From Agrococcus sp. Marseille-Q4369 (GTDB lineage: Bacteria; Actinomycetota; Actinomycetes; Actinomycetales; Microbacteriaceae), in assembly GCF_018308945.1 (NCBI RefSeq), contig NZ_CP070501.1, positions 2,232,001 to 2,296,000 on the forward strand: DNA of 64,000 nucleotides, in the 5' to 3' direction. Of this stretch, positions 28,791-38,191 are shown piece by piece. The position numbers were made by a program, and so were the translations under genes. Below the pieces are notes generated by a model, which was not told the origin of the DNA, did not search any database, and was given only the letters and a program-made list of their open reading frames with translations. Position 1 is the stretch's first letter, and every line of letters begins with the position of its first letter.

Positions 28791-29642
28791 ATGACTGCGA
28801 TCACCGACGCGCTGCGCATCACCGGTCCCGTCGACCTGGCGAGCGTGAGCCCCGCATCCACCCCCGGGTTCGACGGCCGCAAGGCCGACGGGCAGCGGGC
28901 GCTCGAGGCGGGCGCCGAGCGCCTCGCCGAGCTGCAGGAGCGGCTCTTCGCCGAGAGCACCGCGGGCGGCGAGCGCTCGGTGCTGCTCATGGTGCAGGGG
29001 ATGGACACCTCCGGCAAGGGCGGCATCATGCGGCACGTGATCGGGCAGGTCGACCCGCAGGGCGTGCGCATCAAGGCGTTCAAGGCGCCCACCGAGGAGG
29101 AGCGCAGCCACGACTTCCTGTGGCGCATCGAGCGCGAGCTGCCGGCGCCGGGCATCATCGGCGTCTTCGATCGCTCCCACTACGAGGACGTGCTCATCCA
29201 CCGCGTGCGCGGCCTCTCGGCGCCCGATGTGATCGAGGAGCGCTACGGCCGCATCGTCGAGTTCGAGCGGGGGATCGCCGAGCGCGGCATCTCGCTCATC
29301 AAGGTGATGCTGCACGTCTCGTTCGAGGAGCAGGGCACGCGGCTGCTCGAGCGCCTCGACCGGCCCGACAAGCACTGGAAGTACAACCCGGGCGACATCG
29401 ACGAGCGCGAGCACTGGGATGCCTACATGGAGGCGTACGAGATCGCGATCGCCCGCACGGCCACCGAGCAGGCGCCGTGGCACGTCGTGCCCGCCGATCG
29501 CAAGTGGTACTCGCGGCTCGCGGTGCGCGAGCTGCTGCTCGAGGCACTCGAGCGCATCGACCCGCAGTGGCCGCCGGCCGACTTCGACGTGGCCGCCGAG
29601 CGCGCCCGGCTCGTCGGCGCGGGCGGCACCCCCGCCAGCTGA
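28791..29642 (+). CDS. ppk2: PPK2-family polyphosphate kinase
   Basis: A 283-residue polyphosphate kinase 2 family protein, which transfers phosphate between polyphosphate and nucleoside mono- or diphosphates. Walker A is visible as MVQGMDTSGKGGIMRHV (about residues 65-81) and Walker B as GVFDRSHYEDVLIHRV (about 124-139). The lid region is seen as RPDKHWKYNPGDIDER, and the C-terminus as WHVVPADRKWYSRLAV. The single-domain length fits class I or III; substrate preference cannot be decided here. The gene ends 18 bases before the 20-bp repeat array. Confidence 0.94.
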   Translation: MTAITDALRITGPVDLASVSPASTPGFDGRKADGQRALEAGAERLAELQERLFAESTAGGERSVLLMVQGMDTSGKGGIMRHVIGQVDPQGVRIKAFKAPTEEERSHDFLWRIERELPAPGIIGVFDRSHYEDVLIHRVRGLSAPDVIEERYGRIVEFERGIAERGISLIKVMLHVSFEEQGTRLLERLDRPDKHWKYNPGDIDEREHWDAYMEAYEIAIARTATEQAPWHVVPADRKWYSRLAVRELLLEALERIDPQWPPADFDVAAERARLVGAGGTPAS

Positions 29643-29660
29643 CCGCGAGCCCGCCCGCCC

Positions 29661-29960
29661 TCGAGCGGTCAATTCCCCGCCTGAGCGGTCAACTCCGCGC
29701 GTGAACGGTCAACTCCGCGCGCGAGCGGTCAACTCCGCTCGCGAACGGTCAACTCCGCCCGCGAGCGGTCAACTGCGTGGCGGAGCAGCCGCCCGCCGGC
29801 CGGCCGACCGCTCACATGACGAACTGACCACTCGCACACCGACGTGATCCTTCGCACACCGAATCGACCGTTCACACGCGAAAGTGACCGCTCGGAAGCG
29901 GAAGTGACCGCTCACACGCGGAAGTGACCGCTCGAGCGCGGAAGTGACCGCTCGGAGCGC
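29661..29960. repeat. 300-bp head-to-head array of 20-bp repeats between convergent ppk2 and menF
   Basis: Six plus-sense units start at 29661, 29681, 29701, 29721, 29741 and 29761, with consensus GCGAGCGGTCAACTCCGCGC. A 20-base centre follows (29781-29800). Then eight opposite-sense units start at 29801, 29821, 29841, 29861, 29881, 29901, 29921 and 29941, with consensus GAAGTGACCGCTCACACGCG. The 20-base phase is unbroken through the centre. The conserved core is GAGCGGTCA or its complement TGACCGCTC. It exactly fills the gap between the two gene ends. There is no coding potential and no unique spacers. Confidence 0.95.
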
Positions 29961-29963
29961 CGG

Positions 29964-31172
29964 TCAGGGGAGGGGGTCGGCGAGCGCGTCGGTGATGGGG
30001 CGCAGCTTCACGGCCGTCTCGGCGAGCTCGGCGGCCGGGTCGGAGCCCGCCACGATGCCCGCGCCAGCGAACGCGCGGATGCCCCCGTCGGCCGCGATCT
30101 CGGCGCCGCGCAGCGCGATCACCCACTCGCCGCCGCCGTCGCCGTCGATCCACCCGACCGGCCCCGCGTAGCGGCCGCGGTCGACGCCCTCGAGCTCGCG
30201 GATGAGCGCGAGCGAGGCCTCGCGCGGCGTGCCGCCGACCGCAGCGGTCGGGTGCAGCAGCGCGAGCACGTCGAGCGTCGAGCGGTCGCCGAGCGTGCCG
30301 GTGATGTCGGTCGCGAGGTGCCAGAGGTTCGGCAGCCGCAGCGGGAACGGCTCCGACGCGCGCGCATCCGGCGCGAGCTCGCGCAGCACCGCCATCGCGG
30401 AGTCCGCCGCGAAGCGGTGCTCGCGCAGATCCTTGTCGCCCGACGCGAGCGCCTCCGCGATCTCGGCGTCGCGCGAGGGCGTCGCCCCTCGCGGGGCCGT
30501 CCCCGCGAGCACGCGCGAGAAGAAGTGGCCCCGGTGCGCGGCGATGAGCGTCTCGGGGCTCGCGCCGACGACCCCGTCGACCGCGTAGGTCACCGCATCG
30601 GGGTAGCGCTGCACGAGGCCGACCGCGACCGAGCGCACATCCCCGTCAGGCGGCAGCTGCCCCACGCGATCCCGGGCGACGACGACCTTCTCGGCCCAAC
30701 CGGCACGGATGCGCTCAGTCGCCGCCGCGACGACGGCGCGGTAGCGCTCGGCGTCGATCTCGCCGTCGGTTAGCTCGACGCGCACCTCCTCGACCGCGGT
30801 CGGGTGCAGGCGGCCCTCGTCGCCGATCCACGTCACCCACTCGTCGTCGCCGCGACGGCCGACGACGAGCTCCGGCACGATGAGCACGCTCGTCGCGGCC
30901 GACGCGTCGTCGAACGCGAACGCGCCGAAGGCGACGAGCCCCGTGCCCGGGACGGCGACCGCGTCGTCGACGACCGCGTCCCGCGCGACGTCGCGCCACG
31001 CATCCGCCGCGTCCGTGAAGCGCGAAGGGCCCCGGAACTCGAGCCGCATCGCGACGCCCCGGCCGACGATGCCGTCGGCGCCGCGGCGGATCGCGAGCGG
31101 CCAGCGCGGCTCGGCGTGCTCGAGCAGCCGGCCGGGCTCCGCGCGCTCGGTGCGCACGTGCAGGCTGGGCAT
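29964..31172 (-). CDS. menF: isochorismate synthase
   Basis: A 402-residue chorismate-binding enzyme that isomerises chorismate to isochorismate, the entry step of menaquinone synthesis. The conserved C-terminal core shows EKVVVARDRV, VVGASPETLIAAHRG, VLAGTAPRG, the metal ligands around SGDKDLREHRFA, HLATDITGTL, HPTAAVGGTPRE and GWIDGDGGGEWVIALRGAEI. The N-terminal third is variable, as usual. TAGGCT lies 7 bases before the ATG. It diverges from menG and converges on ppk2 across the repeat array. Confidence 0.95.
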   Translation of the reverse strand: MPSLHVRTERAEPGRLLEHAEPRWPLAIRRGADGIVGRGVAMRLEFRGPSRFTDAADAWRDVARDAVVDDAVAVPGTGLVAFGAFAFDDASAATSVLIVPELVVGRRGDDEWVTWIGDEGRLHPTAVEEVRVELTDGEIDAERYRAVVAAATERIRAGWAEKVVVARDRVGQLPPDGDVRSVAVGLVQRYPDAVTYAVDGVVGASPETLIAAHRGHFFSRVLAGTAPRGATPSRDAEIAEALASGDKDLREHRFAADSAMAVLRELAPDARASEPFPLRLPNLWHLATDITGTLGDRSTLDVLALLHPTAAVGGTPREASLALIRELEGVDRGRYAGPVGWIDGDGGGEWVIALRGAEIAADGGIRAFAGAGIVAGSDPAAELAETAVKLRPITDALADPLP

Positions 31173-37949: not shown

Positions 37950-38049
37950 CACCCTGCGGGAACTGTGCGCCTCGCGACCTCGCGCAGGCGCAGAATGCCG
38001 GAACTCTGCGCTCAGAGACCCGCTGAGCAGCAGAGTGCCGGAACTCTGC
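37950..38049. repeat. array of 20-base palindromic modules between the hypothetical gene and tRNA-Tyr
   Basis: The 331 bases between 37778 and 38110 hold no convincing gene. Units GCAGAATGCCGGAACTCTGC (37990-38009) and GCAGAGTGCCGGAACTCTGC (38030-38049) are near-identical palindromes 40 bases apart. Exactly 20 bases lie between them, also a partial palindrome (CTCAG...CTGAG, 38010-38029). One more 40-base step upstream, GGGAACTGTGC (37958-37968) is a degenerate copy. The module length matches the array at 29661-29960 but the sequence is different. Confidence 0.7.
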
Positions 38050-38075
38050 GGGCCGGCGGGCGCGACCGAGACGGC

Positions 38076-38109: not shown

Positions 38110-38191
38110 TGGCGAGTGAGGGATTCGAACCCCCGAAGGCATTGCCAGCTGATTTACAGTCAGATCCCTTTGGCCGCTTGGGTAACTCGCC
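38110..38191 (-). tRNA. tRNA-Tyr (anticodon GTA)
   Basis: The minus strand reads GGCGAGTTACCCAAGCGGCC at the 5' end, anticodon loop CTGTAAA, a long class II variable arm, T-loop GGTTCGAATCC, acceptor 3' strand ACTCGCC and discriminator A, followed by an encoded CCA (38107-38109). The long variable arm and GTA anticodon fit bacterial tRNA-Tyr. Confidence 0.97.

Follow-up and report, generated by a model that had tools for sequence, protein, structure and literature searches.

Inward-facing arrays of 20-bp repeats in intergenic gaps of Agrococcus chromosomes

Iteron arrays are tandem Rep-binding sites that lie at plasmid origins, about two helical turns apart. Repeats of the VNTR or MIRU type are tandem and intergenic, and their copy number differs between relatives. 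The part of the REP/BIME literature drawn on here describes elements of enterobacteria, Stenotrophomonas, and Pseudomonas that are extragenic, dispersed, species-specific, inverted, and subject to fast turnover (PMC2817692). According to the same part of that source, hybrid arrays of two repeat types occur, and some loci have a gene flanked on both sides by inverted repeats (PMC2817692). BIMEs are described there as alternating in orientation and REPs as imperfect palindromes with kept complementarity (PMC2817692).

The array that is the subject of this report lies in the window, i.e., the whole 64-kb stretch of Agrococcus DNA that was analysed, and the genome to which the window belongs is labelled G000 in our genome set. 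The gap that holds the array is bounded by the stop codons of two genes, at 29642 and 29964 (Table 1). A preliminary description placed the array between convergent ppk2 and menF, which is borne out by gene calls and family matches. Its layout of six units of one sense followed by eight of the other, in exact 20-base steps within each half, is confirmed by the unit listing and by shuffling. With at least 8 of 9 core positions matched in a single 20-base phase, the array has six plus and six minus units, versus a maximum of one phase-locked unit in 2000 mononucleotide shuffles of its 320 bases. The TRF scores of the two half-arrays are 163 and 120-141. The array is not CRISPR-like, as was stated earlier, because it consists of continuous 20-mers without unique spacers. 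At gathering score, Rfam recovered four tRNAs only from the window and left the array unmatched. A separate 40-bp tandem repeat of 2.4 copies is found in the window at 37955-38050, near a tRNA at 38110-38191.

Table 1. Features of the array and of its two neighbouring genes (window coordinates).
Feature	Position	Strand	Basis
Left half-array, six 20-bp units, sense GAGCGGTCA...	29663..29782	+	Repeat finding, unit listing
Plus unit starts, left half	29663, 29683, 29703, 29723, 29743, 29763	+	Unit listing
Centre, with beginning of decayed seventh plus unit GAGCAGCCG (29783)	29783..29793	.	Unit listing
Right half-array, eight opposite-sense 20-bp units, innermost four degenerate	29794..29953	-	Unit listing
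Minus unit cores, right half, eight	29805-29813 through 29945-29953	-	Unit listing
ppk2, polyphosphate kinase of the PPK2 family, convergent neighbour on the left	28791..29642	+	PF03976 E 3.5e-69; TIGR03709 above cut-off
Isochorismate synthase gene, menF-like, right convergent neighbour	29964..31172	-	PF00425 E 1.6e-62; TIGR00543 isochorismate synthase above cut-off

G000 contains about a dozen arrays overall, and at least 11 of them are made of the window-type 20-mer. The list of exact matches of this 20-mer in G000 is whole, and tandem pairs with up to three mismatches number at least 59 forward and at least 70 reverse, whereas the reversed control gave 2 and 1. Ten of the 11 arrays are two-sided, every one with plus units on the left and minus units on the right; the sole one-sided array occupies a convergent gap at rpsT. 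By gene calls, seven of the 11 lie between convergent genes, three between co-directional genes (aroB/aroQ, dnaE/hisD, and treY with the gene following it), and one in a divergent gap (DoxX-like/serA, L028). A related 20-mer, GAGTGGCGCC..., forms further G000 arrays at 448.75-450.0 and 901.4 kb, and its units are found at the outer edge of the arrays at 196 and 767 kb.

The array goes beyond slippage noise of one genome, since 20-mer arrays occur across the genus: either of two 20-mer patterns matched in 19 of 24 Agrococcus genomes, the first in 12 and the second in 15 (in G302 through one match). The reversed control of the first pattern matched in G223, G302, and G049, and these matches are genuine arrays with GAGTGGCCA- or GACTGGCCA-like cores. 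The reversed control of the second pattern gave 1-5 matches in G400, G265, G402, and G406. Cores differ by genome and include GAGCGGTCA, GAGTGGTCA, GAGTGGCG[CG]C, GA[CG]TGGCCA, and GACTGGTCA. G119, an Agrococcus genome without pattern matches, has no mostly non-coding 20-bp repeat in 400 kb of its 2.67 Mb; it has intergenic tandem repeats of unrelated periods. The search of Microbacteriaceae for the tandem core that was proposed at the outset was productive within Agrococcus, where 4 of 10 sampled genomes were positive; among the other genomes, 14 of 388 gave one match each. A collection search returned 21 stretches, 8 from Agrococcus lahaulensis and Agrococcus sp. HG114 and 13 scattered in other bacteria. 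Single sites that start with GATCGGTCAG and show a core copy again 20 bases on occur once per genome in eleven genomes of other genera (five of these sites are L012-L016), and in part they are inverted repeats. Bacillus sp. PAMC26568 (L033, L039, L042) has a composite element, roughly 200 bases long, in which five GARCGGTCA units follow each other in 20-21 base steps. It is present at several loci, also in tandem; its core equals the Agrococcus core and its step is nearly equal, perhaps by chance. Near-perfect 20-bp tandem arrays with GACCGGTCA in Micromonospora antibiotica (L036) and Actinoplanes sandaracinus (L037) may be chance tandem duplications. The preliminary description named no known element of this kind, and none with this layout was found in the open-licence literature of PubMed Central; the inward-facing 20-base layout is absent from the available parts of PMC2817692 and PMC12306157. 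The arrays look like a selected kind of bacterial repeat without earlier description.

The ppk2 gene lies beside menF in 20 of the 24 Agrococcus genomes. An array stands at this locus in three of the 24, made of GAGCGGTCA in G000 and of GAGTGGCGCC in G265 and G402, and is absent from the junction in 21. The three genomes are sisters in a one-gene tree, and MenF of G265 is 98% identical to window MenF. For 8 of the 11 G000 loci, at least one further Agrococcus genome has an array beside both of the flanking genes (19 pairs among the fetched arrays). Recurring loci often carry a different 20-mer, e.g., L018 of G000 versus L105 of G384, and thus the places are kept while the 20-mers change. The comparison of unit number between relatives, which had been recommended, shows that close species differ in unit number and also in their spacers. 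The longest half-array seen has 45 units (L105, 1121-2020) and belongs to the same locus as L018. In the ppk2-menF gap of G332 (L055), where G000 has its array, there is a palindromic element around GGTCTCGATACGC...CTACTCGACCAGCG, and similar elements are present in L034 and L153. In L024, a perfect 15-pair hairpin stands right behind the stop of a parA-like gene (just after 3813), ahead of the array; it is absent in G265. Dispersed polar sites on the chromosome, some in places common to species, might be chromosome-scale DNA sites for nucleoid organisation, segregation, recombination, or replication. We give this reading very little credence, given that the G000 arrays, which are spread along the chromosome, are unevenly spaced and that the window locus is so often array-free.

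Evidence on the period comes from a junction of response regulator (ANTAR) and thioesterase genes, which was reached in 18 Agrococcus genomes via a DUF559 query and not via the repeats. Lag-20 arrays occur there in 15 of the 18; G406 and G411 have weak three-unit chains only, and G359 has none. Control lags of 18, 19, 21, and 22 yielded two segments, one in G409 at the junction (lag 21) and the other in G119 at a different locus (lag 22). This locus is fair evidence for a fixed 20-base period, because 20-base patterns served to detect the remaining arrays. The nuclease gene lies in the middle, between half-arrays that adjoin the ends of the two genes. Inward half-arrays enclose a DUF559/MTES_1575 nuclease gene in L103, L087, L091, L115, L116, and L081. 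In L081, from G359, the nuclease gene with a half-array on each side lies between the genes for an M50 peptidase (rseP-like) and ispG. The nuclease was considered as the element's own gene and rejected, since an array adjoins it at 2 of 12 other loci (one of them L081) and at none of 40 further fetched loci. A search of 45 genera, in which 30 junction loci were read, found an array in G000 only, with one locus masked by N. In the 28 junctions from other genera, no period of 14-30 bases was present, and a perfect stem of at least 8 pairs lies within 150 bases of the stop in 9 of them.

All 70 two-sided arrays of the fetched set, with orthologous loci counted separately, are head-to-head. A tail-to-tail array would be equally self-complementary, so the uniform head-to-head layout suggests that the units are polar or that the arrays descend from a single ancestor. 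The 99 array-bearing gaps, with orthologous loci again counted separately, comprise 58 convergent, 37 co-directional, and 4 divergent gaps. This count covers fetched arrays with well-scored neighbours, gathered by pattern or at two protein loci and not by context; arrays with a consensus starting GAGCCGCC, GAGTGACC, or AAGTGG were excluded, as were L096 and L118. Array-free gaps are a biased null and were left unused. On a circular genome, convergent gaps equal divergent gaps in number, and 58:4 is therefore far from even (p 2.6e-13, with orthologous loci not independent). From the stop codon to the first unit, the median distance is 32 bases (n=144, quartiles 16 and 63.5; 3' end of the outer neighbour within 300 bases). 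In co-directional gaps of up to 900 bases, 9 of the 12 one-sided arrays have the same direction as the genes, and two-sided arrays in co-directional gaps have no clear surplus of gene-sense units. The two-sided transcription barrier suggested from the first array is matched in position, as the arrays are mostly at gene 3' ends; the barrier action itself we infer.

In units accepted on spacer evidence, the GG at unit positions 5-6 varies in 4 of 1674 cases and spacer positions in 1042 of 9207 (unit chains were first detected by a core pattern that tolerates one mismatch, and some bias is left in the GG count). For the three unit types, GG mismatches are 3/542, 1/1026, and 0/106, and spacer mismatches are 394/2981, 584/5643, and 64/583. 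Between loci of one genome, the core is also better kept than the remainder of the unit, subject to the same bias of the one-mismatch pattern. The near-invariant GG points to a putative sequence-specific recognition, because it almost never varies while the spacer does. The counts of unit conservation, stop distance, and half-pairing additionally exclude the consensus GAACGGCACC and GAAGGG. Arrays of more than 20 units are left out of the outer/inner, stop-distance, and unit-conservation counts, and L096 and L118 are also left out of the outer/inner comparison and the phase replication set. Drift is larger near the centre, as had been noticed in the window: the outer two units are better kept in 53 of 94 half-arrays and the inner two in 19, with 22 ties (in G000, 12, 2, and 6, n=20). 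The idea that units are added at the outer ends fits three G000 halves that mix two unit types, since the second type is the outer one in each, though in one half it amounts to just one or two units. L127 (G402) differs and has one single unit of the other kind outside. Neutral tandem repetition through replication slippage could produce the variable unit number and spacers of close species, and G119 does have intergenic tandem repeats of unrelated periods. Slippage is nevertheless a most improbable account of the arrays, with lag 20 in 15 genomes at a locus not chosen by repeats, an orientation of 70:0, a core common to loci, and a GG that is almost invariant.

The whole window array folds at -176 kcal/mol (z -9.7), while the left half alone has z -3.3 and the right half z -1.2. 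The first two values, and the location behind stop codons, would suit units that act in the transcript as an array of 3'-end, terminator, or stabiliser elements. The weak right half does not, and over 94 half-arrays the sense fold is no better than the antisense fold (52 lower, 42 higher, p 0.60). Pairing between the two halves of one array is not stronger than between halves taken from different arrays (25/54, p 0.79), and no terminator-like site with a T tract was found in 29300-30300. We regard action at the RNA level as improbable. The missing difference between sense and antisense folds rules against an RNA hairpin in each unit, and the pairing of the halves rules against selection for a long hairpin. 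A helical phase running through the centre was rejected as well. A 10.5-bp signal was present in the first 32 arrays (R 0.48, p 0.0005; seven periods tried) and persisted with orthologues removed (R 0.44, p 0.006). With the prediction set first, 26 new arrays gave R 0.16 and p 0.51, and 12 of the 26 fell in the predicted half. Hence the 20-base lattice that had been described throughout holds within each half and not across the centre, where the array family has no fixed phase, and the notion of a motif displayed fourteen times on one DNA face fails.

The polar 20-bp arrays of Agrococcus are intergenic, lie mostly in convergent gaps, have inward-facing halves, and combine a constrained core (GANYGG...) with fast turnover elsewhere in the unit. 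Tandem sites for a trans-acting factor are consistent with their polarity and period and with a core that is constrained while the spacer changes. The core would be the putative binding site of this factor, with DNA-binding likelier than RNA-binding. Location at gene ends, together with outer units that are kept best, is in line with a polar barrier to machinery that leaves genes. Our best guess, which we hold tentatively on sequence grounds, is a polar and putatively protein-bound two-sided barrier at gene 3' ends. Each half-array would form tandem polar sites that halt or slow machinery coming out of the adjacent gene, and a two-sided array would insulate convergent genes from mutual read-through. 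The outermost units would be encountered first and matter most, which may be why they are best kept. Units would be gained and lost fast, perhaps at the gene-proximal edge. The response regulator/thioesterase junction, which carries arrays in 15 of the 18 Agrococcus genomes but in none of the 28 other genera read there, supports the barrier. Five points count against it: four arrays lie in divergent gaps, one of them the serA/DoxX-like gap of G000; the window junction is array-free in 21 of 24 genomes; L024 already has its hairpin behind the parA-like stop; gene-sense units are in no clear surplus in two-sided co-directional arrays; and promoter avoidance could also yield the enrichment in convergent gaps.

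Such avoidance is part of another explanation, a BIME-like non-autonomous repeat, in which a head-to-head element spread in the genus and was kept where no promoter was harmed, its arms expanding and turning over. It accounts for the 70:0 orientation by descent and for the convergent bias by promoter avoidance, and it covers the fast replacement between sister species, the new unit types at the edge, and the conserved GG. The core would be kept through recognition by the spreading or amplifying enzyme, with little gain for the host, a part that we likewise rate as somewhat unlikely. Against a BIME-like origin, no mobilising gene was found, the candidate considered, the DUF559/MTES_1575 nuclease, being so seldom beside an array at its other loci. 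Viral contigs have no exact match of the two core patterns, and plasmid and phage records left the window array unmatched (BLAST, low-complexity filter on). Although somewhat unlikely in itself, the tolerated BIME-like repeat is nearly as likely as the barrier, which is slightly ahead at nearly equal weight. A broader form of the barrier view is more doubtful. It would make the arrays a new class of bacterial satellite DNA with a fixed period, a monomer that changes in concert in each genome, a dedicated co-evolving putative factor acting as a two-sided gene-end barrier, and new monomers on the gene-proximal side.

Within the genus, the repeat itself gives way to another, at one locus even between sister species, while its 20-base step, its inward polarity, and many of its loci persist. 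As the repeat changes while step, polarity, and loci stay, the arrays are a natural experiment on the joint change of a short DNA signal and its putative reader. They are also a testable candidate for separating convergent genes in high-G+C bacteria. Among known systems, REP and BIME elements, as far as the cited part of PMC2817692 describes them, share with the Agrococcus arrays the extragenic location, the many dispersed copies per genome, the species-specificity, the inverted and hybrid arrangement, the gene that lies between inverted repeats at certain loci, and the fast turnover. In contrast, an Agrococcus half-array is a run of single orientation, with halves facing inward (70/70) and no regular alternation. 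The halves are not co-adapted, the sense fold is not favoured, and pairing as in a palindrome is not kept. Bidirectional hairpin terminators of convergent genes offer a likeness in place, since the junction that carries arrays in 15 of 18 Agrococcus genomes has a perfect stem in 9 of 28 other genera. They differ in that the arrays have independent 20-bp halves and also occur beside divergent genes, and the window array is without a T tract. Iterons are also tandem sites about two helical turns apart, whereas the Agrococcus arrays are dispersed on the chromosome and head-to-head, and the neighbours in the window are ppk2 and the isochorismate synthase gene with no replication gene. With VNTR or MIRU-type repeats, the arrays have in common that they are tandem and intergenic and that copy number differs among relatives; unlike these, they retain one period with changing sequence, a fixed polarity, and a constrained core.
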